From a virus: a stretch of DNA of 64,000 bases. The stretch spans positions 1 to 64,000 of the IMG/VR virus record IMGVR_UViG_3300042387_002461. The stretch is one strand, 5' to 3'. The notes under the pieces were generated by a model. It did not search any database, was not told the DNA's origin, and was given only the letters and a program-made list of their open reading frames with translations. The position numbers and the translations under genes are program-made. This document shows positions 1,078-52,604 of this stretch, one piece after another (position 1 is the stretch's first letter; each line of letters starts with the position of its first letter).

Positions 1078-1584
1078 TTATTTTGAAACTTTCCGAACTT
1101 CACTCAAAGTTCTTCCGTCGCTAGTCATTTCTGTTACCTCAAATTTAAAAGGTCCTTTGAAATTCTTCTTTGCATAATTCAACAACATCTGTGCAAGCTT
1201 TCCTCTTTGACTTTCATAAGCTTTTTCTGTCCAGAAAGAAATATAAGTCGCATCAACATCTCTCTGCTTTGGAAGAATGATTCCAGAATAGTTAAAATCT
1301 ACCTCAATTGGCTCTCCGAGAACATTGTCGACCGCTTTCAAAACGTTTTCAAAATTTAGCTTATAATCTTTATCAATTGCTTTCACTTGCTTCAGTTTGC
1401 GAAGAACATGAGCATGAGATTCAATTGTTGGAACATATTCTTTAATAAGCGTTCCATGTGCATCTCCTATAAAGAATTCAAAATCATACTTTGTCCTATC
1501 ATAAAGATCTCCAACGATTTCTGGAGATTCAAATAAGCGAACTTGTCTATAAGCTTCTTCTAAGAGTTTATGATCTCTGTTCAC
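1078..1584 (-). CDS. tag A late protein, core homologous to the 49.5 kb protein
   Basis: 168 aa, GTG start. It begins NRDHKLLEEAY (tag A variant), then a core with FEFFIGDAHG, GIILPKQRDVD and TYISFW. The same core motifs occur in the protein at 49531-50082, which carries a different N-terminus. An L-box (ATTAAATAA) lies 5 nt before the GTG. Core function is unknown. The LLEE-A site in the tag would fit a prohead-protease cleavage site of the T4 type (inference). Confidence 0.85.
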   Translation of the reverse strand: MNRDHKLLEEAYRQVRLFESPEIVGDLYDRTKYDFEFFIGDAHGTLIKEYVPTIESHAHVLRKLKQVKAIDKDYKLNFENVLKAVDNVLGEPIEVDFNYSGIILPKQRDVDATYISFWTEKAYESQRGKLAQMLLNYAKKNFKGPFKFEVTEMTSDGRTLSEVRKVSK

Positions 1585-1592
1585 AGAGTTAT

Positions 1593-1688
1593 TTAATCTT
1601 CTCTATCTTCAACTCTCGGAAAGCCATAACGATCATCTTCGAGATAGTCTTCTCTTTGCTCTCCAATTAAAAAATCTTCTGGTTCCAT
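1593..1688 (-). CDS. 31-residue acidic peptide
   Basis: A short ATG frame encoding a very acidic peptide (about 13 Asp/Glu), starting 7 nt after the stop of the upstream gene and ending beside the L-box of the next gene. Position in a tightly packed series supports it. No function is recognised. Confidence 0.5.
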   Translation of the reverse strand: MEPEDFLIGEQREDYLEDDRYGFPRVEDRED

Positions 1689-1694
1689 AACTCA

Positions 1695-1985
1695 TCAAAT
1701 AACTCCAGAAACGTCTTGACCAGACGCAACGATCTCGAGAAGCTTATTAATATTATTTGAGCTTATCCGAGACTCACACAAAGCAGGATGAGTATTGACA
1801 ATATTTGAAATTGTTTCGTTAAGTTCTTGTAGTTGTTCGAGAGGTTTCTTCCGAAGGTCCTCTCCGTCAATTACATTTGAAGCATCTCGATATTCGCGAA
1901 GCAGCACATCTACAATATCATTTAAATCATTAATCTTTAGCTTCGTGTGCCCAACTAGTTCATTGATTGTTGTAAACTTATTCAT
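1695..1985 (-). CDS. unknown helical protein, paralogue of 3240-3533
   Basis: 96 aa from the internal ATG at 1985. An upstream in-frame start is possible but lacks the paralogue's alignment. It shares NxLVGxTKxxxNxLxxIxDxLLxEYRxAS and a PLxxLQELN segment with the protein at 3240-3533. Predicted mostly alpha-helical. It sits in the late-type cluster next to a transglutaminase-like gene. Function unknown. Confidence 0.8.
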   Translation of the reverse strand: MNKFTTINELVGHTKLKINDLNDIVDVLLREYRDASNVIDGEDLRKKPLEQLQELNETISNIVNTHPALCESRISSNNINKLLEIVASGQDVSGVI

Positions 1986-2025
1986 CTTGTAATAAGAATA
2001 CAAAAGTTTAAAGATTATTCAACTT

Positions 2026-2679
2026 TTAAAAAGAATTGAATATGAGTCTTTGTTCAGACCAAGAATATTCAGAATTAAAAGAGAACCAGACACTCTTATA
2101 AAAAGCATTCTGTTTAAGAATTGTTTTAGAAGCCATTGGAACATTTGAATCTTCCAAATAGCACCAATCAATTGCAACCCAGTTGTTGTCTGTTTCTCTC
2201 AAATAAGAAACATACCCATGACCGCCTTCTGGAGCAGTCGGAGCAGGTTGAACCATTCCAGCAACTACTCTAATTCTAAAAGCAGGCACGCCACAATGCA
2301 AAGCAAGAGCAGTAATCAGTAACGCTCCATCTTCACAATCTCCATTCTTAAAAGCTAATGTTTCAAAAGGAAATTGCCAGTATTCTACAGTTCCTTGAGA
2401 TAAGTCATCTCCAACATACTTGATATTCTGAACAACCCATCTTTGAATATTCTCAACAGTTTGGTCATGAGAAGCACCTTTCAAGTTATTTGCAAGAGCA
2501 ATATCAGCCACCATCGAATCGTTCTTCGAAAGCATTGTCTTTACATCAATCTTCAAGTGCTCTGAAAGCGTTCTTGAAGAGCAAGTCGGACACTTGGCAG
2601 GAACTGCTCTACCATTATACAAAACAGGATTCTTTGGATACTTGTTATTCCAATGTGCTTCTAATTCTTCAGGAGTCAT
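2026..2679 (-). CDS. transglutaminase-like cysteine protease/transferase
   Basis: 217 aa from the ATG at 2679, which directly follows an L-box (GATAAGTAATT). It has the transglutaminase-like triad: Cys114 in KNGDCEDGALL, His154 in GGHGYVSY and Asp171 in VAIDWCY, in the usual order and spacing. A CPTC pair near residue 30 could bind metal. Such domains act as proteases or amidases, or cross-link Gln and Lys. The substrate is unknown. The late-type start suggests a virion or late role. Family assignment is good, reaction is inferred. Confidence 0.8.
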   Translation of the reverse strand: MTPEELEAHWNNKYPKNPVLYNGRAVPAKCPTCSSRTLSEHLKIDVKTMLSKNDSMVADIALANNLKGASHDQTVENIQRWVVQNIKYVGDDLSQGTVEYWQFPFETLAFKNGDCEDGALLITALALHCGVPAFRIRVVAGMVQPAPTAPEGGHGYVSYLRETDNNWVAIDWCYLEDSNVPMASKTILKQNAFYKSVWFSFNSEYSWSEQRLIFNSF

Positions 2680-2754: not shown

Positions 2755-3225
2755 TTATTTTACAGGCACTGCTTTATAAAAAACAAAATTGTTTGGAATT
2801 TTTTCGTGGCGCTGTTGTTGCTCTGTTGGTTCGATGCGAACAATTTTAAAATCATTAAATTTGCCAGAGAAGGTTTGACCTTCTAGTACCTTTGGGTCGC
2901 TCAGCAAGCTTGTAATATCTTTGAACTTTCTCTTTGCAAATATACTGTCACTGGATCCAAGAGCTGGACCAGAGAATACCCAAAGGATTTTTCCTTTTCT
3001 TTCCATAATGTCATTCTTGAAAGCATAATCAATAGAGGAGTATTTGCTGTCTCTTTCATTTAGACCAGCATTTCGTTCTTGGTTTCGGAGAACAGGAAGA
3101 GTGTCTTCAGGTTCTTTAGGTTCTGGACGCTCTATATAACCCTGCACGTTTGGAAGAGTGATGGTTGGAGTTTCTTCGTTAATTTTGCGAAGAGTAGCGG
3201 ATACAAGTTTGTCGAATTTTGTCAT
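2755..3225 (-). CDS. tag B late protein, unknown core
   Basis: 156 aa. The N-terminus TKFDKLVSATLRKINEE is a tag B type leader with a possible (L/I)-x-E site. The core (about 60-156) has GKILWVFSGPALG and an FKIVRIEP strand but matches no family I recognise. An L-box (ATTAAATAA) precedes the ATG. Confidence 0.85.
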   Translation of the reverse strand: MTKFDKLVSATLRKINEETPTITLPNVQGYIERPEPKEPEDTLPVLRNQERNAGLNERDSKYSSIDYAFKNDIMERKGKILWVFSGPALGSSDSIFAKRKFKDITSLLSDPKVLEGQTFSGKFNDFKIVRIEPTEQQQRHEKIPNNFVFYKAVPVK

Positions 3226-3239: not shown

Positions 3240-3533
3240 TCAAACTCTTCCAATAATTCGTTCTTCAGAATGAGCAATAGCACTAATCACATCTGCAGCA
3301 CGCTTTGATATATTATCAATATCAAACACGGAATAATTTGCAGCAAGTCCTTGCAAGTCGTCATTGAGCTCTTGTAGAAGAGCCAGAGGACCTTGGCGAG
3401 GATCTTGCTCTGTATTGATTTGTTCAGAAGCAATTCTATATTCCATCAACAAAGTATCAATAATCTTTTCTAGAGTATTAAGGCTCTGTTTTGTTTCTCC
3501 AACTAGGTTGTGTATAGTGTAGGGTTTGTTCAT
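3240..3533 (-). CDS. unknown helical protein, paralogue of 1695-1985
   Basis: 97 aa. It shares the LVGETKxxLNxLExIIDxLLMEYRxAS pattern with the 1695-1985 product. Its ATG overlaps the TGA of the upstream 45-codon gene, which suggests translational coupling. Function unknown. Confidence 0.8.
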   Translation of the reverse strand: MNKPYTIHNLVGETKQSLNTLEKIIDTLLMEYRIASEQINTEQDPRQGPLALLQELNDDLQGLAANYSVFDIDNISKRAADVISAIAHSEERIIGRV

Positions 3534-4258: not shown

Positions 4259-4681
4259 TCAACGCTTATTAGGTTGAATGTATTTGTCTAAAAAATCTCC
4301 ACCATTGCCAACCATTTCAGCAGCCCTTATCTTTTGTATTTGCTGCGGAGTAAGGCTTTCGATTCGTTTCAAATATTCTGCTACTGTTATATTATCAATC
4401 GTATGGCTTGGATTGCTTGCAACCATTTTAGAAAATGCTGCATGCTTTTTCTTTAAGAACTCGTCTCTTGGTCCAAGTTTACTTAGGAAGTCGCTTTTAG
4501 AAGCCTTTGCTTCGATCGGAACAGGTTGTTGAGTCTTTGAACAAGAATCATCCTTACAAGCAGCACCGCCAAGAGCAATTGCTCCAGCAGCGAGAGCACC
4601 CTTCACGCCATTCCAATTCAATTCGCTCAAAAGAATTTCGTTATAAGCTTCTTCAAGTAGGATTTGGTCTTTTGATTTCAT
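4259..4681 (-). CDS. tag A protein with lipobox-like hydrophobic segment
   Basis: 140 aa. Tag A (KDQILLEEAY) is followed at about 24-42 by a hydrophobic segment ending LGGAAC, which resembles a lipoprotein signal. If the tag were cut after LLEE or nearby, the new N-terminus would lie close to this segment. The rest is Lys/Ala-rich with EYLKRIESLTPQQIQKI. Its ATG overlaps the stop of the upstream tag A gene (ATGA). Function unknown. Confidence 0.85.
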   Translation of the reverse strand: MKSKDQILLEEAYNEILLSELNWNGVKGALAAGAIALGGAACKDDSCSKTQQPVPIEAKASKSDFLSKLGPRDEFLKKKHAAFSKMVASNPSHTIDNITVAEYLKRIESLTPQQIQKIRAAEMVGNGGDFLDKYIQPNKR

Positions 4682-5436
4682 TTTTGTTGAGTGAGCAATT
4701 TAGACAAGAATTGTAGTTCTTGGGAAAGTTTAGTTGCAGTGAATTGAGCTGCCCCTGCACCAGTCGGACCTGCCGAGCTACCCATCGATTTAGTCAACCA
4801 CCCTAAAAGTCCTCTAATTCTCTCCTTTGTTGACCCTTGTACTTTGGCGTCTAGCGATTTAAGCATATTGAGCGCCGTTTCTATATTTCTCTGTTGAGGC
4901 ATACGTTTATTCAGAAGATCATTGCTTAAGCGACTTAGTTCTAGAGCAAACCGCTTTTGATCGAAACTCGTGCCGGATGCAGGAGCTGGTTTACTAACAG
5001 CAGCAGGAGTCTGTTTAGCGAACTGTCGAGTTTGAGGCAATTGCTGCTTATTGTTAGGAGATTGCTGGGTTGCAGAAGAGGCACTAGCATTTATTTTGCC
5101 AAGTGCTTGAAAGGTGTCGATAGTTCTCTTTATTTGAGAAGTGGGAGCACCCACTCCAGAGGAGTATTTGTCTGCATCAGTAGGGTTGTATTGCGTCTCA
5201 AGACTTTTTTGTAAAGACAATAGAGCATTTATTACCTCCTGCGTTTTTTCTGCCTCGTACACGTTCCATAGATCTAACGTATCGCTCCATTGTGTGTACA
5301 AACTTTTTACTGAAGGAGATTGTCTCATGCTTGCATCCAAAGCAGACATGGACTTTGTAATTTTGTCTATTGCAGACTTATTATTCACAATTTGCCCGTA
5401 AGCTTCTTCTAACAATGTTTGGTCTTTGGACTTCAT
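4678..5436 (-). CDS. tag A protein, Ser/Gln-rich helical core
   Basis: 252 aa. Tag A (KDQTLLEEAYGQI) is followed by helical stretches with a central low-complexity Gln/Pro/Ala region (about 120-165). An L-box (ATAATAAATAAAC) ends 4 nt before ATG. It is the first gene of a two-gene unit with 4259-4681. No enzyme motif seen. Confidence 0.85.
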   Translation of the reverse strand: MKSKDQTLLEEAYGQIVNNKSAIDKITKSMSALDASMRQSPSVKSLYTQWSDTLDLWNVYEAEKTQEVINALLSLQKSLETQYNPTDADKYSSGVGAPTSQIKRTIDTFQALGKINASASSATQQSPNNKQQLPQTRQFAKQTPAAVSKPAPASGTSFDQKRFALELSRLSNDLLNKRMPQQRNIETALNMLKSLDAKVQGSTKERIRGLLGWLTKSMGSSAGPTGAGAAQFTATKLSQELQFLSKLLTQQK

Positions 5437-5459: not shown

Positions 5460-5747
5460 TTAGTACTTTAGTCTTGCAAGAATGTCTCTATTCTTTTCCA
5501 TGATCTCTGTTAGGATTTCTATACAAACGTCTCCCCATTGTTGACGTGACACCTCGCCCTTTTCATATTTCTTAAAAGTATTCCAGAAATTTCTTACATG
5601 TATTGATTCAATTCGGGACGGAACTTGATCTTCAGGGTGATGTTCGCTATCTTCTTCTGCTTCCTGTGGGTTAAAAAACTTATCTAAAATTCCTTCAGTA
5701 ATGTTTTTATAAGCTTCTTCTAATAGTGTTTGGTCTTTTGATTTCAT
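5460..5747 (-). CDS. tag A protein, acidic core
   Basis: 95 aa from the ATG at 5747. The longer in-frame extension upstream is ignored because it would read through the L-box and bury the tag. Tag A (KDQTLLEEAYKNI) is followed by an acidic linker (QEAEEDSEHHPED) and a helical end. L-box CTTAAATAAAC precedes the start. Function unknown. Confidence 0.85.
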   Translation of the reverse strand: MKSKDQTLLEEAYKNITEGILDKFFNPQEAEEDSEHHPEDQVPSRIESIHVRNFWNTFKKYEKGEVSRQQWGDVCIEILTEIMEKNRDILARLKY

Positions 5748-5755
5748 AAGTTTAT

Positions 5756-6007
5756 TTAAGCTTTCTTCCAAGAAATTCTCTTTGAACCTTTCTTCTTTCT
5801 CATTGAATAAGTGCATTGAGCCATTGTTGGCCTGCATGCTGGATAACCTTTTCGCTTTTCTCCTTTTTGCCTACCACAAGGCTTTCCTGACTTACAATCA
5901 ACCCAACCCTTCCCTTTGTTGCTCGAGAACCAACCATGCAGTCCTTGTTCCTTCTCTGCCTTGAAGGCTTCTTCTAACAATTCTAAGACCAGACTTTGAA
6001 AGTTCAT
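5756..6007 (-). CDS. tag B small Cys-rich basic protein
   Basis: 83 aa. The leader MNFQSLVLELLEEAF combines tag B spacing with the LLEEA site of tag A. The mature part has GKGWVDCKSGKPCGR and YPACRPTMAQC, a Cys/Gly/Lys pattern I have seen in small proteins of marine T4-like phages. ATG overlaps the TGA of the upstream 51-residue gene. It could be a packaged DNA-binding peptide (inference). Confidence 0.8.
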   Translation of the reverse strand: MNFQSLVLELLEEAFKAEKEQGLHGWFSSNKGKGWVDCKSGKPCGRQKGEKRKGYPACRPTMAQCTYSMRKKKGSKRISWKKA

Positions 6008-6159
6008 TTCTTTTTCCAGATCTTTCCTTTTCTGCACTTTACTACAGCACCAGATTTATAAGCACTGGTCTTCTTGCCATATGCTTCATCAGCCTTTCGC
6101 AAGCAGCGGTCTCTCTTAACTTTTTCAAGAATAAAGTTTACAAGGTCATCAAATTGCAT
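6004..6159 (-). CDS. tag B basic 51-residue peptide
   Basis: The leader MQFDDLVNFILEKVK (tag B) precedes a strongly basic part (CLRKADEAYGKKTSAYKSG, then KCRKGKIWKKK). An L-box (GATAAATAA) overlaps the stop codon of the upstream gene and ends 5 nt before ATG. The stop overlaps the next start (ATGA). The ADEAYG..TSAYKSG..RKGKIW pattern is recurrent in phages. Role unknown. Confidence 0.8.
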   Translation of the reverse strand: MQFDDLVNFILEKVKRDRCLRKADEAYGKKTSAYKSGAVVKCRKGKIWKKK

Positions 6160-6901: not shown

Positions 6902-7102
6902 TTATTCTCCTCCGCCATCGCCGCCACCTTCTGATCCTGCTCCGACATCATGAAGACTGTTATCATATCCTCCCCAGTAGCCCCAAGGTCCCCACGGCCA
7001 ACCTTTAACAGATTTGTTTGATCTCTTCCTTTTCTTGGATTTTTTCTTAGTCTTTGCTTCTTGCAGAATGGATTCGCACAACTGATCAAACTTTGGAGTC
7101 AT
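6902..7102 (-). CDS. tag B protein with Lys-rich and Gly/Trp-rich parts
   Basis: 66 aa. Leader TPKFDQLCESILQEAK (tag B, LQEA site), then a block of about 12 Lys/Arg, a WPWGPWGYWGGY aromatic-glycine segment and a GGGDGGGE tail. L-box TGAATAAATAA precedes the ATG. An overlapping frame at 6883-7089 is judged a shadow. A packaged nucleic-acid-binding peptide is possible. Confidence 0.8.
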   Translation of the reverse strand: MTPKFDQLCESILQEAKTKKKSKKRKRSNKSVKGWPWGPWGYWGGYDNSLHDVGAGSEGGGDGGGE

Positions 7103-7367: not shown

Positions 7368-8819
7368 ATGGCTATCATCAATCAATATCTCAGCACACTT
7401 ACATATAGTGATCCGACAACTGCAACACTTCAAAAAATCTTTGAAGAAGATATTCTCGGAGACAGCGCTGATACTTACTTTGAAGTTCCTCTTCCCTTTC
7501 CGATTAGTTATTTTGGAAACTCCTACAATTCTGTATTTGTTTCTTCTAATGGTTATATTACTTTTGGAGAAGGTTCGGGCAGCACTCCTGACTGGGCACA
7601 AGACTTAATGGAAGACCATACTCCTTTTGTTTCTGTTGCAGCAGGTGATGATAGAATTAAGGAGCTCTGGGCAACAAACTCTGAACTCTCTGCAGACGCT
7701 GAGGAATTTCGCATAAGATTCAACGGCTGGTATCCTTATAATATTGAAGGTTATGGCGACGAACCGCCTACTCCTACAAATCTTACCTACGACCTTACTT
7801 TTTATAAAAACTTGCCAGAGCAGATCGATCTTCAGATTATCTCTCAGCCTGTTACAGGAATTGATGTCGAAGTCTTCAGAGATCAAGAATTTATCCCAAA
7901 TGTTATTGTCAGCGAAGGCTTCTCAATACTTGCGCTTGCAGACAATGCTGCAGAGCAAGGGTTCAGAATTACTGCCAGCCTTCCAATTTCTTATCCTTAC
8001 TTGAGCGGACTCAATGGCGTGCTCTATAATGGTTACTTTGAAGGTAATCCAGAGTTCTTCAAGACAGCCACTAGAGAAGGAACAACTGAAGCAAGAAATA
8101 CTTTCAACGGACTCAGTGAAACCGTTGATGCTTCTTGGCAATGGACTGGATATCTCCTTTCTCCTGAAACCAATTATTATTCCTTTAATGGCAATTCCGA
8201 ACATGCTTTCTGTATGTGGCTTGGTGCATCTGCTCTTGAAGCAAACTATTCATCTTCGAATATGCTTGTATCTGCAGACAATTATCAAGACTTTAATACA
8301 AGAGAAGAAAGAGTAACATTTGCTGGATATACTCAATCAACTAATGAATTCACATTTGCTCCAGAAGTCAGCGCAAAGTTCTCTTATCTGTCTGCTGGTT
8401 CAAGAGTTGCTGGTTATAGTCAAGTAACCGATACGAACTTTGTTCTTACTGTTGCTTCCAGAGACACCGTTACTGGAACAATCTCTGCCACCACAGACGT
8501 TATTGGACAAGATGATATTGGAAACGCGGACAGCTGTCTTAAAATTCCAAAAGGCATTCTTCTTCAAGGAGGAGAGTACTATCCGATCAGAATTCAATGG
8601 GGCCATCCTCCAGAACCAACTGGAGCCAATCTTTACATAAACTTCCGCCAACTAGATGGTTACGATCCCGAGACTGGAGAAACTTATGATACAAATTCTA
8701 CATCAGATTGGACCGGTCTAGCTTGGAGAGATCCAGAAACTGACGGACCAGAAAGAATCTGGAACATCTATGGAGGAATTAGCAATTACTTGAGACTCAG
8801 ACTACTTGGTCACTTCTAA
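7368..8819 (+). CDS. virion adhesin-like protein with nidogen-like and PA14-like regions
   Basis: 483 aa. Residues about 40-70 (PLPFPISYFGNSYNSVFVSSNGYITFG) match the nidogen-type beta motif. Residues about 215-450 (GLNGVLYNGYFEG..., WQWTGYLLSPETNYYSF, GEYYPIRIQWG...NLYINFRQ) resemble a PA14/GLEYA sugar-binding fold. No signal peptide. It is alone on the + strand among - strand genes, with a late-like GTTAAATAG before the ATG. Most likely a tail-fibre or capsid-decoration protein that binds host surface sugars (inference). Confidence 0.75.
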   Translation: MAIINQYLSTLTYSDPTTATLQKIFEEDILGDSADTYFEVPLPFPISYFGNSYNSVFVSSNGYITFGEGSGSTPDWAQDLMEDHTPFVSVAAGDDRIKELWATNSELSADAEEFRIRFNGWYPYNIEGYGDEPPTPTNLTYDLTFYKNLPEQIDLQIISQPVTGIDVEVFRDQEFIPNVIVSEGFSILALADNAAEQGFRITASLPISYPYLSGLNGVLYNGYFEGNPEFFKTATREGTTEARNTFNGLSETVDASWQWTGYLLSPETNYYSFNGNSEHAFCMWLGASALEANYSSSNMLVSADNYQDFNTREERVTFAGYTQSTNEFTFAPEVSAKFSYLSAGSRVAGYSQVTDTNFVLTVASRDTVTGTISATTDVIGQDDIGNADSCLKIPKGILLQGGEYYPIRIQWGHPPEPTGANLYINFRQLDGYDPETGETYDTNSTSDWTGLAWRDPETDGPERIWNIYGGISNYLRLRLLGHF

Positions 8820-9849: not shown

Positions 9850-10197
9850 TTATTTCATCTTTTCTTCTCTGCAAGCCTTAACATCCTTCTTGCATTCGCT
9901 AGCAGATTTAAACTTGCCAGCAAGCTTTGGAAAGATCTCTTCAATCTTTTCTAGTGCACAGTCTTTAATAATTACTGTATAACGACCTTGAGAATCTTGA
10001 GAAACCGAAAATACTTTGCTGCAGCTCTTAACCTTATCCATTACTTCTTCGGATTGATTAACAAATTGACCTTTTGCAAGCTTCTTGATAAGATCTCCGC
10101 AGTCTTGAACTTCTTTTTCAATAGAACTATTGCTATCTTTCTTTTCGAGAATTGATTGATAGGCTTCTTCTAAGAGTGTTTGGTCTTTTGATTTCAT
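9850..10197 (-). CDS. tag A protein, Lys/Cys-containing core
   Basis: 115 aa. Tag A (KDQTLLEEAYQSI), then a charged core with regularly placed Cys (CGD, KSCSK, DCALEK, SECKKDVKACRE) that could form disulphides outside the cytoplasm. TTAAGTAACCC lies just before ATG as a weak L-box. Function unknown. Confidence 0.85.
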   Translation of the reverse strand: MKSKDQTLLEEAYQSILEKKDSNSSIEKEVQDCGDLIKKLAKGQFVNQSEEVMDKVKSCSKVFSVSQDSQGRYTVIIKDCALEKIEEIFPKLAGKFKSASECKKDVKACREEKMK

Positions 10198-12606: not shown

Positions 12607-12864
12607 CTATTTTATTTCTATTCCTCCACCTGGTCCTTGTTCGTAAATCTTGATCTTAAAAGCTTCAGGATAGGCCATTCCTTGAAGCCATGCATGTGCC
12701 ACTTGCTCACTAAAGAAAGCCTCCTTGAAGATATCACCTTCCTTGTCTGGTCTGACAATAATATAAACCCTCACTTTCTCGTTATGTTCGCCTTCTTGCT
12801 CATTGACGGGCAATTGGATCTTTGCATAAGCTTCTTCTAATAATTGTTGGTCTTTGGACTTCAT
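12607..12864 (-). CDS. tag A protein, small alpha/beta core
   Basis: 85 aa. Tag A (KDQQLLEEAYAKI), then EKVRVYIIVRPDKEGD and FFSEQVAHAWLQGM, an alternating strand/helix core. L-box CTTAAATAAAC ends 3-4 nt before ATG. Confidence 0.85.
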   Translation of the reverse strand: MKSKDQQLLEEAYAKIQLPVNEQEGEHNEKVRVYIIVRPDKEGDIFKEAFFSEQVAHAWLQGMAYPEAFKIKIYEQGPGGGIEIK

Positions 12865-44128: not shown

Positions 44129-44164
44129 TTTTCAAAAAGGACAACAATTGTCCAAAAGATTTTG

Positions 44165-44193
44165 TTGTGTTGTCCGAAAATAATCTTTAGAGT
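44165..44193 (+). promoter_or_regulatory. E-box promoter on the + strand
   Basis: TTGTGTTGTCC, 17 nt spacer, TAGAGT, ATG 10 nt later at 44204. Confidence 0.8.
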
Positions 44194-44203
44194 CTTTTCT
44201 GTT

Positions 44204-45118
44204 ATGAACGTACTAAGCAATCAATCATCTGCTAACAAGCAATTCACGAGAGCTTCGGAAGTAGTTATTCCGGATATCTTTAATAGGAGGTTCTTTACAG
44301 GCAAAGAAGAACTTGATAACGTCTTCGGAGGAAGTGGTTTCGTTCCAGGTTTTACATTTACTCTTGCAGCAGCACCTGGAACTGGTAAGACAACTTTTTG
44401 TTTGCAAACGCTTGAGTTGCTGGAGCTTAACGGAAAGAGAACAGCATACATTTCCGGAGAAGAGACTCAAGAGCAACTTGCATTTACTTCAAAACGTATT
44501 AATGTTCAAAGAGTTCCACTTGCTAACTTGACTGACGTAGATGAGATTTGTAATGCAATGAGAGAGAATAAGTTTGATTTTGTCATTCTGGATTCTCTTC
44601 CAGCACTTACTGTCAAGCATAAGATGAGCTCTAGAGAGAAAGAAGAGTATGTTACAACAAAGCTTATTCAGACTGCTAAAGAGAATGAGATTTGTATTGG
44701 AGTGATTTTGCACTTTACTAAAAATGGTACGTATAAAGGCAGTACTTTATATCCGCACAGTTGCGATTGCACGCTAATTATGCAGCGAAATGATGAGGAT
44801 GAATCTCTGAGAGATATTGAATCCACCAAGAATCGCTTCGGAGGGACTGGGTTAATGACTATTGAAATGTCTGCAAGAGGTTTTACTTTTGAGAAAGTTG
44901 ACGAAAGCAGAGTGCAACCAAAAGAGAAAGCAAAGAAAGCTTCAAAGCGCGACGTTGTTCTACAAGCTCTTGAAGAGGGAGAGAAAACCATAGCAGATCT
45001 TGCGAGAGAGACTGGAGTCAATGGTCAGTATCTTGTAGCAATCTTGAGAGATCTATCAAACGAAGGAGTTGTTTCAAAAGAAGGCAAAGGAGCTCAAGCA
45101 GTCTTCAAGAAGCTCTGA
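44204..45118 (+). CDS. RadA/Sms-like RecA-superfamily ATPase (paralogue 2)
   Basis: 304 aa from ATG 44204. Same build as 32657-33577: KQFTRASEVVIPDIFNRRF, TGKEELDNVFGG, Walker A AAPGTGKTT, YISGEETQEQ, FDFVILDSLPAL, KNRFGG, winged-helix end (IADLARETGVNGQYLVAILRDL). Lacks the RadA zinc finger and Lon domain. The two copies may have separate roles or form hetero-oligomers (inference). Confidence 0.85.
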   Translation: MNVLSNQSSANKQFTRASEVVIPDIFNRRFFTGKEELDNVFGGSGFVPGFTFTLAAAPGTGKTTFCLQTLELLELNGKRTAYISGEETQEQLAFTSKRINVQRVPLANLTDVDEICNAMRENKFDFVILDSLPALTVKHKMSSREKEEYVTTKLIQTAKENEICIGVILHFTKNGTYKGSTLYPHSCDCTLIMQRNDEDESLRDIESTKNRFGGTGLMTIEMSARGFTFEKVDESRVQPKEKAKKASKRDVVLQALEEGEKTIADLARETGVNGQYLVAILRDLSNEGVVSKEGKGAQAVFKKL

Positions 45119-45145
45119 GAGAGAAACAAACATTAAATAATCTTC

Positions 45146-45826
45146 ATGAACAAAGACCAGAAACTTTTAGAAGAAGCTTATCAGAGTATTTGCGAATCTT
45201 CTGAACAAGAGTTGCTCACTCACATCAAAAGAGAAACTGCTAAGCTGAAAGATCCTTCTGATCCAATTTCTATGGAACTAGGAACAGACGAGAAAGGAAG
45301 CTTTGTTTATAAATCAAGTATTTATAAACCAGGTGGAGTCTATAAGTCTTATATTGGAAGTTTGTTTAGTCCAGACCTAAAAGAAGTTCCTCGCAGCACT
45401 CCAATTAAAGAAGGAATGATGTGGACAGAGCAAGACATCAATACAAAGATTGTTTACAGAGCAACAATGATTGACGGAAGGTTGATGAAGAAGATGGTCC
45501 CTCCTCAGGAAGCAAGAGAAAAAGGATTGACAAACTTGATATCAAAGTATGCTCTTGAAAAAGAAGCAGAGAGAAAGCATAAAGGCAATATTGATCTTGC
45601 AAGAGGTTGGCGTATTATTAATGCTCCAGTAGATTTCAATGTAAAGTTTTATAGTCCTGAAGAAATTTTTAAAAGTTTAGAAGCATTATATAAAGATGGA
45701 AAGTATAAGAAGGAGTACGAAAAAATTGTTGGAATCTACAAACAAAAGTTAAAGGAGAGAGAAATTGATGCGAAGCTTTCTGATACTTTTAATCAAGATG
45801 ACTTAGAAGCTTTGAAAGACTTTTGA
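45146..45826 (+). CDS. tag A late protein with C-terminal motif
   Basis: 226 aa. Tag A (NKDQKLLEEAYQSICESSE), unknown charged core, end DTFNQDDLEALKDF, a variant of the shared C-terminal motif. L-box ATTAAATAATCTTC before ATG. First gene of the tagged series. Confidence 0.88.
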   Translation: MNKDQKLLEEAYQSICESSEQELLTHIKRETAKLKDPSDPISMELGTDEKGSFVYKSSIYKPGGVYKSYIGSLFSPDLKEVPRSTPIKEGMMWTEQDINTKIVYRATMIDGRLMKKMVPPQEAREKGLTNLISKYALEKEAERKHKGNIDLARGWRIINAPVDFNVKFYSPEEIFKSLEALYKDGKYKKEYEKIVGIYKQKLKEREIDAKLSDTFNQDDLEALKDF

Positions 45827-45838
45827 TAATTACTCTTC

Positions 45839-46447
45839 ATGAACAAAGATCAAAAGCTGTTAGAAGAAGCATACAATAAGATTTGCGAATCAACAAAAGA
45901 TGATACTTTGCTTGCTTCAGAAGAAGAATTAATTCACTTAATAGCAGACTTGCTTATAGAGTCAATCGGAAGAGAAGAGCCTCGTTTGAGCAGAAGCAAC
46001 GGAATCGTACCTCTTGACCAACTTCTGTCTTCTTTCGATTTTTTCAAAGAACATCTGAATGAAAAATTTTTAAAAGCTATCAACTGTCCTCCGGGCTTAC
46101 AAACAGCATGCGGAGATATTTATTTAGAGTACGGTTATGGACCGTTTAGTGCTAATAGTCATTTTCATTTCTTTGGAGCTAACAAACGTTTTACTGACAA
46201 AAGTTTCTTAGAATTAACTCTTCTGGACGGAAGTAAAGTCAAAGCAGACTATAAAGACAAACAAGCTATTCAAACAGTTCTACGGGATTACATTATTAGA
46301 GCAACTGATGAAAGTCTCAATAATAGTGCAAGAGTAAATCCTTACCATAAAAGATTTTTTGAATGGAGAAAGAAAAAGATGCAAGAGCTTCAAAGAGACA
46401 AGCAACTCTCTAAGGATTTTGATATAAGTGCTCTCGAAGGCTTCTAA
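45839..46447 (+). CDS. tag A late protein with C-terminal motif
   Basis: 202 aa. Tag A (NKDQKLLEEAYNKICEST), core with GYGPFSANSHFHFFGANKRF, end SKDFDISALEGF. GATAATTAC L-box in the 12 nt gap after the previous gene. Overlaps the convergent gene 46444-46920 by 4 bp. Confidence 0.88.
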   Translation: MNKDQKLLEEAYNKICESTKDDTLLASEEELIHLIADLLIESIGREEPRLSRSNGIVPLDQLLSSFDFFKEHLNEKFLKAINCPPGLQTACGDIYLEYGYGPFSANSHFHFFGANKRFTDKSFLELTLLDGSKVKADYKDKQAIQTVLRDYIIRATDESLNNSARVNPYHKRFFEWRKKKMQELQRDKQLSKDFDISALEGF

Positions 46448-46920
46448 CAACCAAATGCTTCACAAAGAACTTCTTCGATTGTCTTCTCTTTAACTTCTAC
46501 TTGAGCTTTTTCTGAATAGTAATCTCCATAAGGATCATCCATCAGAACATCTGAAGCAGTTTGTGTCACTTGAACTTTCTTTGAAGCACAAGCTTGCGGA
46601 ACCAATCTCTTAACTTTTTCGAGTATGATGATCAGCAGTTGATGGAAGTGCAGTTGGTTTGTTGAGCCTTTGACAAACTCTAGAACGTCTTCCTTTGAGA
46701 ATTTTCCTTTGAGCTCTGAGAAAGGATTTTCATAACTAGAAAAAACGAGAAGAGGAATATAAGAAACAGCAACTTGAGCAGAGTCTTTGATTACATGAGC
46801 AGCTGATGGATTGTTAATTGTAATTCCGATGGAGGGATCTTCAGAAGCCTTCTTAGCTGCTTTGTAGAGCTTTGCTTGTTTCAGAGAACTATTTTCTAGT
46901 AAGACATCGATAAATTTCAT
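46444..46920 (-). CDS. tag B-like late protein on the opposite strand
   Basis: 158 aa. Starts MKFIDVLLENSSLKQA, a short tag B form. Core with AAHVIKDSAQVAVSYIPLLVFSSY and a Cys near the end. Shares a symmetric AATAATTAATAAA promoter region with the divergent gene at 46942. Function unknown. Confidence 0.8.
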   Translation of the reverse strand: MKFIDVLLENSSLKQAKLYKAAKKASEDPSIGITINNPSAAHVIKDSAQVAVSYIPLLVFSSYENPFSELKGKFSKEDVLEFVKGSTNQLHFHQLLIIILEKVKRLVPQACASKKVQVTQTASDVLMDDPYGDYYSEKAQVEVKEKTIEEVLCEAFGC

Positions 46921-46941
46921 AGAGAGAGAATAATTAATAAA

Positions 46942-47529
46942 GTGTACAAGAATTTAAAAATATTGCTAGAGAATTATGGATCGAAAGAGCCAGCTTATTT
47001 TGGTCCTCTAGATAAGAAAGAAGCCTTTATGAATTGGCTTAAGAGATTAGATTATGAAGTGCATGAAGATGGTTCTGTGAGTGTTAAAGGAGATGTAGAT
47101 TTTAGATATAACGAGCAGGGACAGTTTCGTGTATGTATATCTGACAACATAGAAAAGTATATCGTTTCTAGGCTTCCATTCAACTTTCGAAAGGTTACTG
47201 GTGACTTTATGTGTCCAAAGCAGATTACGACTTTAACGGGATCTCCGAGATACGTTGGCGGAACCTTTACATCTGGTCCTGATAATCAAAACATTTCTTC
47301 TTTAGAGGGAGCTCCGGATTATGTTGGAAAAGACTTTTGGTGCATGAGTGCTAAATTAACAACTCTAGAAGGAGCTCCGGAAGTTATTAAAGGATACTTT
47401 GGAACCAAATGGTTTTCAAAAGAAGATTATAGAGAGTATGCAGAAAAGGCAGCAAGAGAGAAAAGAATTCAAAAGAAACTAGATAAAGAACTAGATCCAG
47501 AGTTTGATGTAGATTTGAAAGACTTTTGA
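46942..47529 (+). CDS. tag B-like LRR-repeat protein with C-terminal motif
   Basis: 195 aa, GTG start. Leader MYKNLKILLENYGS. Then the PAYFGPLDKKEAF and DGSVSVKGDV blocks, repeats of LEGAPxxVGxxFxC type (SLEGAPDYVGKDFWC), and the end KKLDKELDPEFDVDLKDF. Core shared with 47541, 50899 and 51948 but the N-terminal tag differs. Confidence 0.85.
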   Translation: MYKNLKILLENYGSKEPAYFGPLDKKEAFMNWLKRLDYEVHEDGSVSVKGDVDFRYNEQGQFRVCISDNIEKYIVSRLPFNFRKVTGDFMCPKQITTLTGSPRYVGGTFTSGPDNQNISSLEGAPDYVGKDFWCMSAKLTTLEGAPEVIKGYFGTKWFSKEDYREYAEKAAREKRIQKKLDKELDPEFDVDLKDF

Positions 47530-47540
47530 TAATTACTAGA

Positions 47541-48095
47541 ATGAATAAAGACCAAAGATTACTAGAAGAAGCTTATCAGAGTATTTGCGAGTCTTTAAAA
47601 GAGCCTCTTTATTTTGGTCCAAAGAAAGATAAAGAAGGATGGTTATTGTGGCTGAAGGATTATGTACATGAGGTGCATGAAGATGGCTCTGTGAGCATTG
47701 ATGGAGACGTGAATTTTATGGTGAATACTTTATCAGTATTTCCTTTCAAGTTCAAAAAGGTTACTGGAGATTTTTCATGTTTTAATCTAAAGCTTACAAC
47801 TTTGGAAGGAGCTCCAGAAGAAGTAGGAGGAGATTTTTTATGCTCTTATAATATGTTTAAAACTTTAAAAGGAGCTCCAGAAAAAGTTGGAGGATCTTTT
47901 TATTGCTTTCATAATTCTAAAAAGTTAATGATTGCTTCCTTAGAAGGAGCTCCGGCAGAAATTGGAGGAGAATTTGAGAGCAATAGGTTTACTGACGAGG
48001 ATTACAGAAGGTACGCAAGAGAGAAAAAAATTAAAAAGAAGCTAGATAAAGAACTCGATAAAGATCTAAATGTAGACTTGGGAGATTTTTCTTAA
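47541..48095 (+). CDS. tag A LRR-repeat protein with C-terminal motif
   Basis: 184 aa from ATG 47541. Tag A (NKDQRLLEEAYQSICES), EPLYFGPKKDK, DGSVSIDGDVNF, four LEGAPEEVGGDFLC-type repeats, end KKLDKELDKDLNVDLGDF. L-box GATAATTAC precedes the ATG. Confidence 0.88.
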   Translation: MNKDQRLLEEAYQSICESLKEPLYFGPKKDKEGWLLWLKDYVHEVHEDGSVSIDGDVNFMVNTLSVFPFKFKKVTGDFSCFNLKLTTLEGAPEEVGGDFLCSYNMFKTLKGAPEKVGGSFYCFHNSKKLMIASLEGAPAEIGGEFESNRFTDEDYRRYAREKKIKKKLDKELDKDLNVDLGDFS

Positions 48096-48768
48096 AATAT
48101 TTTTGTATCCAAACGAAAAAAGTCAACCGTTTGAGATAAATAAAATAAGAAGACTCGAAAGAGGATTTAAAAAAGTAGTTATCTAGGATACACATAAAGC
48201 CCATGAGGTAGTGATTAATGCCACAGCACTGACGAAACTTTAAAGACTCCGGAATCTTCTAAAGACATAAGAAGAATTTAAAGACTTAAAAATCTTTGGG
48301 CGCTTCTAAAATATAAAAGAATCAGAAACTTCATTATCGCGGCCACAGTTCAAAGAAAGTTTGATGTCTGGGACAATACTACCCGCCAAACACTACAACC
48401 TCGAATTGGGAAGAGAGAAAGATTCTAAGAGGAATAAAGAAGAAGATTATATAAAAATTTATAGAGAGAAAAAGATTGAGCATTAAGATCCCTCAGAATG
48501 CTTTTGAAACTTCGCGTGTCTTTAAAAAAGGATATAAGAAGTTTTGAAATATTTTGCGGGCAATAGAAGCAGAACATAATCTACATAGAGAGAAAGAAGC
48601 TAATAGAAAAGATAGTAACATTCTTCAGAAGACAGAGAGAAACATTATAAAAAGCCCTAGAGAGAATTTTAAATATTTGGAACCTTTGTGTCTTTATAGA
48701 GGGAGAGAGAAGAGATCTACATAGAGAAGAGAGAGGAGACTTTTCCTGAGGGACTGTTAATTACTTGC
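48096..48768 (+). ncRNA. candidate purine-rich late non-coding transcript
   Basis: 670 bp without any frame over 60 codons. A good L-box (GAGATAAATAAAATAAG) lies at 48134-48150 with no start codon after it. The + strand is strongly purine-rich, with repeated AGAGAGAAA/GGGAGAGA units. This fits an untranslated late RNA or a sequence with a DNA-level role. No known RNA family recognised. Confidence 0.35.
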
Positions 48769-48957
48769 ATGGAACTTAATCAAACCAACTTAGAATATGC
48801 AGTGACTACTATTACTTTGAAGAAAGCTTTGGAGTTCTGCAAGAGGTACTTTGGAAGGATTGAATGGAACTTTTTGCAAGAGCTAGGCTTCGGAGATCTG
48901 CAGAGAGAGCAGGTTATGAGCATTTATTCAAAGATTGCAAATCTTGATGGGCGCTGA
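48769..48957 (+). CDS. unknown 62-residue protein
   Basis: MELNQTNLEYAVTTITLKKALEFCKRYFGRIEW, helical. GTTAATTACTTGC (L-box-like) before ATG. Not tagged. Isolated between two long gene-free stretches. Confidence 0.65.
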   Translation: MELNQTNLEYAVTTITLKKALEFCKRYFGRIEWNFLQELGFGDLQREQVMSIYSKIANLDGR

Positions 48958-49530
48958 GAGAGGGAGAGATTCAAGTGTTTCAGGAACTGAAGAAGTTTTG
49001 AAGGGAGAGAGGGAGAGAAGATTTTGAAAAGATTTTGGAAAATTTTTCGAGGGCCTCTGAGGGCCTTATAAGGATTTTTTAAAAAGTTTTGTAAGAAATG
49101 TTTAGAAAAGCTAACTGTTTTTCAAAAGATCTCTAAAAATCTTTCAAAATTCCTCCAAAATCTTCCGAAAATTCTCTAAAAAGTTCTCTTAAAATATACT
49201 TTTCACTATTTTGGACACTCTCTATTTTTAAAAAACCTCTGTATTTTCTAAGTTTCCTTCTTAATTTTCACTGCGGGAAACGCGCTAAAAATACTTCAAA
49301 AATATTCCAAACATTTCCCCGCAGGGAATTAATTTCTTTAGATCTCTTTAGACTCTTGCACAAAGGCTCCATAAAGCTTTTTCTGAATTATTTCTTCTCT
49401 CTCCGGAGTTTCTTTATAGTATTTTTAAGCTTCTCTCCCGTACCAAAAGTGCTATTTTAATGCAATAAAAATACTCTCCAGAAATTACTAATAAAAACTC
49501 TCTTATTCACATTTCTGATTAAATAAGATA
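48958..49530. other. gene-free stretch with strand-composition switch
   Basis: The + strand is purine-rich (GAGAGAGGGAGAGA) up to about 49110 and pyrimidine-rich (TTTCTCTC, CTCCAAAATCTTCC) afterwards. An inverted repeat CTGCGGGAAA/TTTCCCCGCAG with a long loop lies at 49272-49325. No genes. Candidate regulatory or replication-related DNA. Confidence 0.45.
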
Positions 49531-50082
49531 ATGAAGTTTAGCAATTTTGTGCAAGACAAACAAATTTTAAGATATCTCAAAGAAAGTCCGGATGTAGTTA
49601 ATGACAAGTATCACAGAAGAAATTATAACTTTGATTTATTCTTAGGAGATTCAGAAGGAATTATTATTGTTCCAAAGAAAGACTTTGAATTTGATACTCA
49701 TGCAGATATCATTCGTTATTTCTTTGAAACGGGACTAGCAGATAAAAAAACTAAAAAATTAAAAATGTTTCAAGGTTTAAGAAAACTTAAAAATCTTCTA
49801 ACTGCTAATTATTTGAAGATGAAAGTAATCGGCAGTCCTAAATCTATATCTCTAGCTTATATGGGAATTATTCTACCAAAACAAAATGGAAAGCGGGTAG
49901 CAGAAGGAAAAAAACCTTATAAAGATGTGGACGGAACTTATATTTCATTCTGGGATAAAAAAGGAAGCACGGAAGGAATTTCTTGTCAGCTCTTAAAGGA
50001 TTATTGCAAAAAGCATTATTCTGCTCCTTACTTTTTAGAAGTAATGGAAAGCGAATTTACTTCGACTGTATCAAGCTTTTAA
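49531..50082 (+). CDS. late protein, homologue of 1078-1584 with a different N-terminus
   Basis: 183 aa. Starts MKFSNFVQDKQILRYLKESPD (tag B-like). Core NFDLFLGDSEG, AYMGIILPKQ, DVDGTYISFWDKKG matches the tag A protein at 1078-1584. L-box ATTAAATAAG before ATG. Function unknown. Confidence 0.85.
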   Translation: MKFSNFVQDKQILRYLKESPDVVNDKYHRRNYNFDLFLGDSEGIIIVPKKDFEFDTHADIIRYFFETGLADKKTKKLKMFQGLRKLKNLLTANYLKMKVIGSPKSISLAYMGIILPKQNGKRVAEGKKPYKDVDGTYISFWDKKGSTEGISCQLLKDYCKKHYSAPYFLEVMESEFTSTVSSF

Positions 50083-50087
50083 GCTCA

Positions 50088-50219
50088 TCATTTCTGATCT
50101 TCAAAAGCTTTCAGAGTACATACACATAAACAAATCAGTCCAATTGCTAAAAGATATTCTGGAAGTAAACAAAGGCTGAAGAGGGACAAGGCAATTCCAA
50201 AACAATAAGTGACTTTCAT
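50088..50219 (-). CDS. 43-residue two-helix membrane peptide
   Basis: MKVTYCFGIALSLFSLCLLPEYLLAIGLICLCVC (in parts): two hydrophobic helices. E-box in front. An isolated early-type gene inside the late + strand block. Confidence 0.65.
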   Translation of the reverse strand: MKVTYCFGIALSLFSLCLLPEYLLAIGLICLCVCTLKAFEDQK

Positions 50220-50225
50220 AATTTC

Positions 50226-50254
50226 AATTTAAGGGCTTTTAATGGACAAGGCAA
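50226..50254 (-). promoter_or_regulatory. E-box promoter
   Basis: TTGCCTTGTCC, 17 nt spacer, TAAATT, ATG 6 nt later. Confidence 0.85.
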
Positions 50255-50269
50255 GAGATAATTACTATA

Positions 50270-50890
50270 GTGAACAAAGATCAGAGACTACTTGAAGAGG
50301 CTTATCATTTAATTACTGAGCGGTCTCTTTCTCTTCCAATTATCATTATTGATGTTCAGCCTGCTTATGATAAGTTCTGTTCTTCTATTATGGCTGATCT
50401 TGCTTCCTTTCTGAACTCTGCGAAGGGTTCGATTACTTGTTTCTTTAATGGTCCAGATGTTGGTGTAGAAGATTCTATTCAATCTGTTGCTTATTATTAT
50501 TCAGAGCACGGAGTGAATGAAGAAGTTATCGAAAGGATTGACTTTAAGGAAAAATCTTATGCATTCTTCCGGAATTGGATGGATGCTGGAATGGATCGAA
50601 AGCATTTGATTAAAGCAATTCGTTTTATGGTTATGGAAAGAATTGTTGATAGTCGAGATGTCTCTTCTGATCAATGGAAAGAACTGTTTGGAGAAGACTA
50701 TGAAGAGCTCTCTTCTGTTATTGAGTCTGAAGATAACATTAATCTTCCTGATATTTCTTTGAGTGCTTTAAAGTCTCTTGGCGGCTGTTATCTTTGCGGA
50801 GGAGCCAAGGACGAATGTTTATCAGAATTTCGTTTTCTTCTTGAGTCTTTTAATATTCCTTATAAACTTGTTAGTAGTCTAATTTATTAA
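50270..50890 (+). CDS. tag A protein with isochorismatase-like core
   Basis: 206 aa, GTG start. Tag A (NKDQRLLEEAYHLITERS), then LPIIIIDVQPAYDKFC, FFNGPDVGVEDSI, FKEKSYAFFRNWMDAG and GGCYLCGGAKDECLSE. The order Asp near the first strand and Cys near the end fits an isochorismatase-like hydrolase fold found in T4-like phages. No C-terminal motif. Reaction unknown. L-box GATAATTAC before GTG. Confidence 0.8.
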   Translation: MNKDQRLLEEAYHLITERSLSLPIIIIDVQPAYDKFCSSIMADLASFLNSAKGSITCFFNGPDVGVEDSIQSVAYYYSEHGVNEEVIERIDFKEKSYAFFRNWMDAGMDRKHLIKAIRFMVMERIVDSRDVSSDQWKELFGEDYEELSSVIESEDNINLPDISLSALKSLGGCYLCGGAKDECLSEFRFLLESFNIPYKLVSSLIY

Positions 50891-50898
50891 GTATGCTT

Positions 50899-51429
50899 AT
50901 GAACAAAGATCAGGTATTACTTGAAGAAGCATATAAGGCTATTTATGAAAGTGCTTCGGAGCCTTTATATATTGGCAAACCAAACAGAAAGAAATATTTT
51001 TTAGATTGGTTGAGCGTCCGTGATTATGAAGTTCTTGCTGATGGTTCTCTAAAAGTTGAAGGCAACATTTTGTTTAACCATCTTAATCTTACAAAAATTC
51101 CTTTTAAATTTGATCAAGTGAATGGTTATTTCATGTGCACCCACAACAAGCTTTCTTCTCTCGAAGGTTCTCCTCGAATTGTCAATGGATCTTTTTTTTG
51201 CGATGACAACAAGCTTTCTTCTCTGCAAGGAGCTCCAAAAATCGTCGAAGGAAATTTTGTTTGCACAAGCAATCCTCTTCAATCATTAGAAGGAGCTCCG
51301 GAGATTATTAAAGGAGAGTTTCGAAGTGATCAGTTCTCTGATAAGGATTATAGAGACTTTATCAAGCACGAAAAGTATGTTAAGGGAAAGCTCGAGAAGG
51401 ACTTTGATATCGATCTGCAGGATTTTTGA
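50899..51429 (+). CDS. tag A LRR-repeat protein with C-terminal motif
   Basis: 176 aa, start set at the second ATG to align the tag (NKDQVLLEEAYKAIYES). EPLYIGKPNRKK, DGSLKVEGNI, repeats LSSLEGSPRIVNGSFFC and LQSLEGAPEIIKGEF, end LEKDFDIDLQDF. TTAAGTATGC just before. Confidence 0.88.
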   Translation: MNKDQVLLEEAYKAIYESASEPLYIGKPNRKKYFLDWLSVRDYEVLADGSLKVEGNILFNHLNLTKIPFKFDQVNGYFMCTHNKLSSLEGSPRIVNGSFFCDDNKLSSLQGAPKIVEGNFVCTSNPLQSLEGAPEIIKGEFRSDQFSDKDYRDFIKHEKYVKGKLEKDFDIDLQDF

Positions 51430-51430
51430 T

Positions 51431-51946
51431 ATGAATAAGGATCAGAAATTACTTGAAGAAGCTTATGAATCAATCTATAATGATTCTCTAACTTCTTTTG
51501 AAGAATCTCTCGTTAAGAAAGCTGCTCAGGATATAACTGCTCTTTATTTTCGCACCAAGCGAGATGTTAAGAAGATGCTTGTTCTTTTCAAAGACTTGCT
51601 TGATTTGAAAGAAGCAACTGAAATTCTCAATTCTTCTGATGACATTAAAGATTTTCTTTATAAGAAATTTCAGAACTCTCTTTGGGACATAGCTTTCAAT
51701 AAAGGCACATTTGCATACCGAGCATCATCAAGAACCGGAACGCTCACAGGCACAGAAGACAATCTTGAAGAATTTCTTTATAAAGTCTTTTCTGATGCCA
51801 TTCTTGGATTTTTTGCTGTTATGAAAAAAGTTGATAGCGGAATTCATCCAAAAATTCTTGATTATATTAAAAATACACGAGAAATGCAGAAAAAAGTTGA
51901 TAAGGAACTGGATAAAGACTTTGACATCGATTTGGAGGATTTTTAA
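51431..51946 (+). CDS. tag A helical protein with C-terminal motif
   Basis: 171 aa from ATG 51431, 1 nt after the previous stop. Tag A (NKDQKLLEEAYESIYND), helical core (RDVKKMLVLFKDLLDLKEATEIL), end KKVDKELDKDFDIDLEDF. The core is unrelated to its LRR neighbours. Confidence 0.88.
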   Translation: MNKDQKLLEEAYESIYNDSLTSFEESLVKKAAQDITALYFRTKRDVKKMLVLFKDLLDLKEATEILNSSDDIKDFLYKKFQNSLWDIAFNKGTFAYRASSRTGTLTGTEDNLEEFLYKVFSDAILGFFAVMKKVDSGIHPKILDYIKNTREMQKKVDKELDKDFDIDLEDF

Positions 51947-51947
51947 T

Positions 51948-52604
51948 ATGAACAAAGATCAAAAATTACTCGAAGAAGCTTATAGTTCAGTTTGTGAAGG
52001 AGCAAGAGCTCCTTTTTATTCTAAGACTCCTCAAAAAGAACCTTTGTATTTTGGTAAATTGGAACACAAAGGCTACTGGCGGAATTATCTCGGATTGTTT
52101 CACCCCGAAATAACAGAAGATGGATCAGTTCGCATCAAAGGAGACTTTAGTTATTATGGAGGCAACTCTGAAGAAATTTCTGCAAATATGGATCGTTTGC
52201 CATATAATTTTGAATCAGTCGACGGAGACTTTTCGATAAGCAACTGTATCAATCTCGGATCTCTGGAAGGCTCTCCCAAGTTTGTTCCAGGTTCATTTGT
52301 TTGTGATGCTTGTGACTTGAAGACTCTCAAAGGTGCTCCAAGAAAAGTTGGCAAGTATTTTCAGTGCGATACTAATCAACTAACAAGCTTGGAAGGAGCT
52401 CCAGAGCATGTTGGAACAAATTTTTGGGCCAATGAAAATCCAATTACTTCTCTTAAAGGAGCTCCAGAATTCATTGGAGGGAAGTTTGCTTCTGATAAGT
52501 TTTCTCATCAAGATTATGAGAAGTTCAAGAGAGATCGCAGGGTTCAAAAGAAAGTTGAAAAAGAACTTGATAAAGATTTTGATATTGATTTGGAAGATTT
52601 TTAA
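51948..52604 (+). CDS. tag A LRR-repeat protein with C-terminal motif
   Basis: 218 aa from ATG 51948, 1 nt after the previous stop. Tag A (NKDQKLLEEAYSSVCEG), EPLYFGKLEHKGYW, about five LRR-like repeats (SLEGSPKFVPGSFVC, TLKGAPRKVGKYFQC, SLEGAPEHVGTNFW), end KKVEKELDKDFDIDLEDF. Confidence 0.88.
   Translation: MNKDQKLLEEAYSSVCEGARAPFYSKTPQKEPLYFGKLEHKGYWRNYLGLFHPEITEDGSVRIKGDFSYYGGNSEEISANMDRLPYNFESVDGDFSISNCINLGSLEGSPKFVPGSFVCDACDLKTLKGAPRKVGKYFQCDTNQLTSLEGAPEHVGTNFWANENPITSLKGAPEFIGGKFASDKFSHQDYEKFKRDRRVQKKVEKELDKDFDIDLEDF

Follow-up and report, generated by a model that had tools for sequence, protein, structure and literature searches.

Why do 15 proteins encoded in one stretch of viral DNA, with 12 groups of cores among them, begin with the same short peptide? 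The stretch, called the window here, comprises positions 1 to 64,000 of IMGVR_UViG_3300042387_002461, a linear IMG/VR virus record of 66,516 bases. The record is a fragment of a T4-related myovirus, in which the gene at 55356 matches T4_baseplate (PF12322) and the one at 57080 a tail tape measure. An earlier note on this DNA had likened the peptide, referred to here as the KDQ tag, to the capsid-targeting sequences (CTSs) of phage T4. The KDQ tag is very likely an N-terminal CTS of a lineage of large, uncultured T4-like myoviruses. It very probably sends proteins into the virus head, because relatives carry the same cargo with a T4-like head label instead. By analogy, the packaged proteins are most likely delivered into the bacterium.

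The pattern M-[KN]-x-KDQ-x-LLEEAY was found exactly at the start of 14 open reading frames (ORFs) of the window, seven per strand, and the reversed-pattern control gave zero. The fifteenth ORF, at 1078-1584 on the minus strand with a GTG start, has the variant tag NRDHKLLEEAY and reads MNRDHKLLEEAY. All 15 ORFs of the earlier note were present. The positions that it gave for the minus-strand genes are their 3' ends, and the tags lie at 1584, 4681, 5436, 5747, 10197, 12605, 12864 and 13118. The tagged ORFs are listed below.

1078-1584, minus strand: GTG start, variant tag MNRDHKLLEEAYRQVRLFE followed by SPEIV; core homologous to 49531-50082
4259-4681, minus strand: tagged ORF, MKSKDQILLEEAYNEILLSE
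4678-5436, minus strand: tagged ORF, MKSKDQTLLEEAYGQIV
5460-5747, minus strand: tagged ORF, MKSKDQTLLEEAYKNITE
9850-10197, minus strand: tagged ORF, MKSKDQTLLEEAYQSILE
12309-12605, minus strand: tagged ORF, MKFKDQTLLEEAYTKVCE
12607-12864, minus strand: tagged ORF, MKSKDQQLLEEAYAKIQ
12873-13118, minus strand: tagged ORF, MKSKDQTLLEEAYTSL
45146-45826, plus strand: tagged ORF, MNKDQKLLEEAYQSICE
45839-46447, plus strand: tagged ORF, MNKDQKLLEEAYNKICE
47541-48095, plus strand: tagged ORF, MNKDQRLLEEAYQSICE, LRR-like repeats
50270-50890, plus strand: tagged ORF, GTG start, MNKDQRLLEEAYHLITE
50899-51429, plus strand: tagged ORF, MNKDQVLLEEAYKAIYE, LRR-like
51431-51946, plus strand: tagged ORF, MNKDQKLLEEAYESIY; middle differs, acidic C-terminal tail as in the LRR group
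51948-52604, plus strand: tagged ORF, MNKDQKLLEEAYSSVCE, LRR-like

The longest ORF of the 5460 gene begins at 5837. The tag start at 5747 is probably the real one, because a late-promoter motif lies at the right distance upstream. The 12 core groups were defined by BLAST. The cores had been described as unrelated, which holds between these groups but not within one LRR-like group of four tagged proteins (47541, 50899, 51948 and, via a common C-terminal tail, 51431). The LRR-like repeats that had been named are real as judged by eye, but the isochorismatase named at 50270 found no Pfam support. A single-sequence structure model of 50270 had a mean pLDDT of 43 and was not used. Few matches to the tagged cores were found in Pfam and PHROGs, and PADLOC gave three weak single matches.

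The consensus of the tag is M-K-[SNT]-K-D-Q-x-L-L-E-E-A-Y-x-x-[IV], in which residue 2 is more broadly [KNR]. The conserved unit, about 13-18 residues, is longer than first reported, since xx[IV] comes after EEAY and is itself often followed by [ILVM]xE. Pairwise comparison of the conserved codons in the 15 window copies gave 338 synonymous and 28 non-synonymous differences. This indicates that selection acts on the peptide, as had been proposed from the synonymous codon differences. Beyond the window, two scans of 2.9 million viral contigs yielded about 50 further tag-bearing contigs. The collected IMG/VR loci hold 91 tagged proteins, 72 of them non-redundant, in 60 core families. The tag is N-terminal in all, usually three residues (range 1-5) from the start methionine. 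Three pattern matches in GTDB genomes are regarded as chance, since no ORF identified at these places begins with the tag. A tblastn search of cultured phages with 20-aa and 41-aa tag consensus sequences gave no match, although queries this short are insensitive. No mention of the tag was found in the literature.

The destination of the tagged proteins is indicated by homologous cargo with exchanged N-termini. An ADP-ribosyltransferase (ART)-like core was found in 10 contigs, among which its identity is 66-78%; the first pair shares 73% over 135 aa. Seven of these carry KD-type tags, two begin with MLSFKQF[LV]ESKEES, one begins with MKFDSLIEKILKEEE, and none is untagged. Of the seven KD-type starts, six are KDQ tags, for example MKNKDQILLENLYDSISND, and one is MRDKDSIILEGLY. 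Beside the KDQ type and the type resembling T4 internal proteins (MLSFKQFLES), MKFDSLIEKILKE forms a third N-terminal type on this core. T4 internal proteins begin with MKTFKEF and MKTYQEFIAEA in the T4 gene starts examined. N-termini that are T4-CTS-like by sequence likeness are called F-type here. The KD-type clade is separate in the tree of the ART-like core (support 85), which indicates that the tag was replaced at least once between KD-type and F-type. The core family of window 1078 has four different N-termini, each ending with [L/F]xE directly before SP, where homology begins. L083 and L054 are a further tag-swapped pair, and in a wider homolog census the N-termini are mostly KDQ-type or F-type, with about one homolog that looks untagged. 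Judged from these homologies, the KDQ tag appears exchangeable with T4-CTS-like N-termini on the same cargo, both for the ART core and for the 1078 family.

The ART-like core has a weak Pfam PARP match (E 1e-4, below the cut-off). In the structure model its pLDDT is about 90, and the tag and linker are of low confidence. The best PDB match of the model is the cyanophage A4 pre-ejectosome (9k3a, E 5.5e-4), with PARP15 and PARP10 next. Viral models that it matched include polyvalent and MuF ARTs.

The prohead protease and head genes expected of a T4-type CTS are encoded by the tag phages. All tag-bearing records examined are genome fragments. The S77/gp21 prohead protease (PF03420), for which the earlier note had suggested a profile search, was found in 10 of them, including five of the five that hold gp23, but not in the window's own 66.5-kb fragment. 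Five records have tagged genes inside head clusters of the T4 type (portal, gp21, gp22, gp23). In G015 and G020 a tagged gene is flanked immediately by gp21 on one side and by the gp22-like scaffold gene on the other. G037 also has the tagged protein of G020, adjoining its gp21, and in G009, where the contig ends, a tagged gene follows gp21 directly. G038 has three tagged genes in a row, MKSKNTLLLEQAY, MKSKDQRLLEEAY and MKSKDVLLLERAY, between portal and gp21, with gp22 and gp23 coming next. Their position matches that of T4 genes 67 and 68, and MKSKDQRLLEEAY is a NUDIX protein (E 6e-19). Judged by tail genes, the nearest large relative is G016 (217 kb), with 51% identity to window 60150; it holds gp20, gp21, gp22 and gp23 together with several tag variants. 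The gp22 homologs of the tag phages do not begin with the tag. Related-locus searches seeded with 55356 and 49531 confirmed no relatives.

Candidate cleavage sites are also concentrated at the tag. Cleavage had been proposed at LLEE-A. An LxE site does lie within the tag, but LLEE is just one of two or three candidates. A second gp21-like site, [ILVM]xE, was found directly after the tag in 50 of 72 proteins (69%), compared with 9% of interior windows of the same size. The residue that follows it is most commonly G or S.

Expression signals agree with those of late genes. A T4-late-promoter-like motif (ATAAATA or close variants) was found upstream of 39 of the 72 tagged genes, compared with 1.7% of all ATGs in the same loci, mostly 12-14 nt from the tagged start. 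The motif also precedes F-type genes and untagged structural genes. The T4 analogy of the earlier note is thus borne out by gp21 in relatives, location in head clusters, late-promoter-like motifs and homologous cargo with a T4-like CTS. Late-promoter-like motifs in the window are listed below.

5752-5759, minus strand: TTAAATAA, about 11 nt upstream of tagged start 5747
13123-13131, minus strand: GATAAATAA, upstream of tagged start 13118
45133-45140, plus strand: TTAAATAA, upstream of tagged start 45146
45827-45834, plus strand: TAATTACT, upstream of tagged start 45839

The T4 CTSs are propeptides of 10-19 residues that suffice to package foreign proteins and are removed by gp21 (PMC9026906). 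The internal proteins of T-even phages are diverse defence proteins with only the CTS in common (PMC3012670). The KDQ tag resembles the T4 CTSs (IPI, IPII, IPIII and Alt, cut by gp21) as a short peptide at the extreme N-terminus of unrelated cargo, with an (L/I)xE-type site and late-type promoter motifs. The tag phages also encode gp21, gp22 and gp23, and homologous cargo bears a T4-CTS-like N-terminus instead. The differences are the KDQxLLEEAYxx[IV] sequence, a much larger number of cargo genes in a genome (15 in 66 kb) and cargo that is not mainly basic; packaging of this cargo is our inference. The targeting determinants of the T4 CTS are aromatic or hydrophobic residues at positions 4 and 7 (PMC9026906). 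The F-type N-termini that replace KDQ tags show this pattern. The KDQ tag has K at position 4 and a variable position 7, and it was therefore not filed in the T4 CTS sequence family. The simplest reading is that the KDQ peptide represents a new, second class of CTS beside the T4 type.

Other packaging systems were also compared. The ejection propeptides of giant phages (SPN3US gp53/gp54, phiKZ gp93) are likewise common N-termini on diverged head proteins, are cut there by the prohead protease and have been assigned an inferred targeting role (PMC5694885). Unlike the KDQ tag, they are mostly longer than 100 residues and have other cleavage motifs (AxE/SxE). Phage ARTs and Nudix proteins are often packaged in heads (PMC9503650), and among the tagged cargo there are likewise an ART-like family and a NUDIX protein, comparable to the head-packaged Alt, MuF-ART and polyvalent ART. 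Unlike the MuF- or portal-fused ARTs, this cargo carries a detachable short tag rather than a fusion to portal or MuF domains. Among annotated T4 gene starts, the best score for the tag profile was obtained by the N-terminus of the gp22 scaffold, MLKEQLIAEAQKI, via KEQ-LIAEA. The score is low and requires a one-residue gap, an option introduced post hoc, so this likeness is a lead only. It weakly suggests that the tag mimics gp22 (KEQLIAEA in T4 gp22).

Several observations weigh against a CTS. The failure of the T4 pattern at residues 4 and 7 is one of them. No single LxE site is common to all copies (LLEN and LLAE variants occur), and conservation reaches beyond the LEE site, into AY..[IV], so that the exact cut is ambiguous. 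When the tag was considered as a helix, its amphipathicity was not significant. The tagged cargo has a median pI of 6.0, with pI above 8 in 23 of 72. The tagged proteins are thus not predominantly basic and do not resemble the small basic DNA-binding cargo of T4. At least one homolog of a tagged core looks untagged (L115:16425), and an LRR-like homolog in a cultured phage lacks the KDQ tag. The head module, gp21 included, is absent from the window's fragment. No gp21 was found in G005, a 91.8-kb fragment with a T4-type portal, or near the portal of G022, which lies near the contig end. As a separate observation, the cultured LRR-like homolog (L158:2345-2980; Vibrio phage VB_VaC_SRILMA, 196 kb, with a gp21 protease) starts with MCTFEEWFGED. 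Like the T4 CTS, this start has aromatic residues in positions 4 and 7 and a glutamate in position 10; it is a single weak case.

Under the CTS reading, the tagged proteins would be made late in infection along with head and tail proteins. The tag would dock the cargo onto the scaffold core of the prohead. A gp21-type protease would then cut at one or more (L/I/V)-x-E sites, namely LLE/E, LEE/A and/or the downstream IxE, the slash marking the cut. Since every candidate site is missing from some copies and AY..[IV] is conserved beyond LEE, a downstream site or multiple cuts are favoured. The mature cargo would stay inside the head and might, by analogy, leave it together with the DNA and act in host takeover or against host defences.

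KDQ tags and T4-like tags are both used in one genome. The F-type N-termini of the window are listed below, together with a paralog that has a different N-terminus.

2755-3225, minus strand: F-type MTKFDKLVSATLRKINE, late motif upstream
6004-6159, minus strand: small basic protein, F-type MQFDDLVNFILE, late motif upstream
6902-7102, minus strand: small basic protein, F-type MTPKFDQLCESILQE, late motif upstream
33831-34130, minus strand: F-type followed by LLEEA, MKRKFDQLVDKVLNTQLLEEA
36560-37036, minus strand: F-type MKTKFNKLVSKILNE, late motif upstream
40396-41913, minus strand: T4-CTS-like MKSFKQFFFESVESE, late motif upstream
46942-47529, plus strand: LRR-like paralog of 47541, with VYKNLKILLENYG in place of the KDQ tag
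49531-50082, plus strand: F-type MKFSNFVQDKQILRYLKE followed by SPDVV; core homologous to 1078-1584; late motif 12 nt upstream

The small and basic character of the 6004 and 6902 proteins was judged by eye. A gene within the tail module (54041-54589, plus strand) also has an F-type N-terminus, MKQFDLVYEQAMDYLRE, and a late motif; its G016 counterpart begins with MKKFDLIFEKAMCALHERE. Tentatively, packaging might use two addresses. The KDQ and F-type classes would coexist in one genome and be swapped between cargoes. They would perhaps dock on different core components, the KDQ tag for example by mimicking the scaffold, and so set the copy number, position or ejection order of a large delivered arsenal.

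Three other explanations were weighed. The tag might dock proteins to a compartment other than the head interior (tail, baseplate or portal vertex), or might stay uncut, and would then be a targeting signal but no CTS propeptide. The tagged genes of the window flank the tail module, the F-type N-terminus at 54041 lies within it, and the conservation past LEE points the same way. This explanation is nevertheless unlikely, given the tags in head clusters adjoining gp21 and gp22, the swaps with T4-CTS-like N-termini and the strong enrichment of gp21-like sites at the tag-core junction. It is more improbable still that the tag directs proteins to a place in the host cell outside the virion (a replication compartment, the membrane, a phage chaperone or a host enzyme) with late expression incidental; the cargo is diverse and of mostly unknown function, but such a site does not predict T4-CTS-like exchange on the same core, head-cluster neighbours or gp21-like sites. 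That the peptide is no targeting signal, but goes back to the recent duplication of a single gene start or is a feature of the nucleotide sequence (a promoter or a translation enhancer for leaderless mRNAs), was rejected on the codon counts and is hardly credible with 60 core families across many contigs and a late motif upstream of untagged structural genes too, even though many copies have that motif shortly before them and paralogs occur among the cores.

The CTS reading extends a signal that was previously known mainly in T-even phages, on a handful of cargo proteins. The KDQ tag would be a second searchable signal, flagging dozens of unknown proteins in uncultured phages, ART-like and NUDIX effectors among them, as probable cargo of the head. 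For the T4 internal proteins studied so far, inhibition of host defences is known or suspected: IPI acts against GmrSD, and IPIII is required on one E. coli strain (PMC9391042). The KDQ-tagged proteins are therefore candidate injected anti-defence or takeover proteins. The peptide might also serve as a new tag with which to load proteins into phage heads.

Further features of the window were observed. Most proteins of the plus-strand cluster at 45146-52604 have in common an acidic peptide at the C-terminus, K-x-L-[DS]-K-[DE]-F-[DN]-[IV]-D-L-x-D-F, which is present even on differing cores (45839, 51431) and is a possible second, C-terminal tag. Two small paralogs, 1695-2003 and 3240-3533 (both minus strand), have a common N-terminal LVGxTK...LL.EYR segment, possibly another shared N-terminal module. 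Similar starts, NKNFTRAGEVRVPEIYNRKF and NKQFTRASEVVIPDIFNRRF, were found at 32657-33664 (minus strand) and 44162-45118 (plus strand), respectively; the latter matches KaiC/DnaB-like ATPases. The element TTGAnCTGTCCnnAnnAATCTCTAAKATCnnTyCTGTT-ATG lies directly upstream of at least 16 untagged ORFs (minus-strand starts, 15010-43116), for example those starting at 23439, 27942, 29731, 35848 and 42664. It is -35/-10-like and very close to the ATG, so the mRNAs would be leaderless. It is probably the early promoter class of the phage. A TnpB/OrfB-like transposase with a Cas12f1-like TNB domain is encoded at 30177-31391 (minus strand). The ORF at 7368-8819 (plus strand) encodes a 483-aa protein with a GLEYA/PA14 domain (adhesin or carbohydrate-binding) and has a late-like motif upstream.

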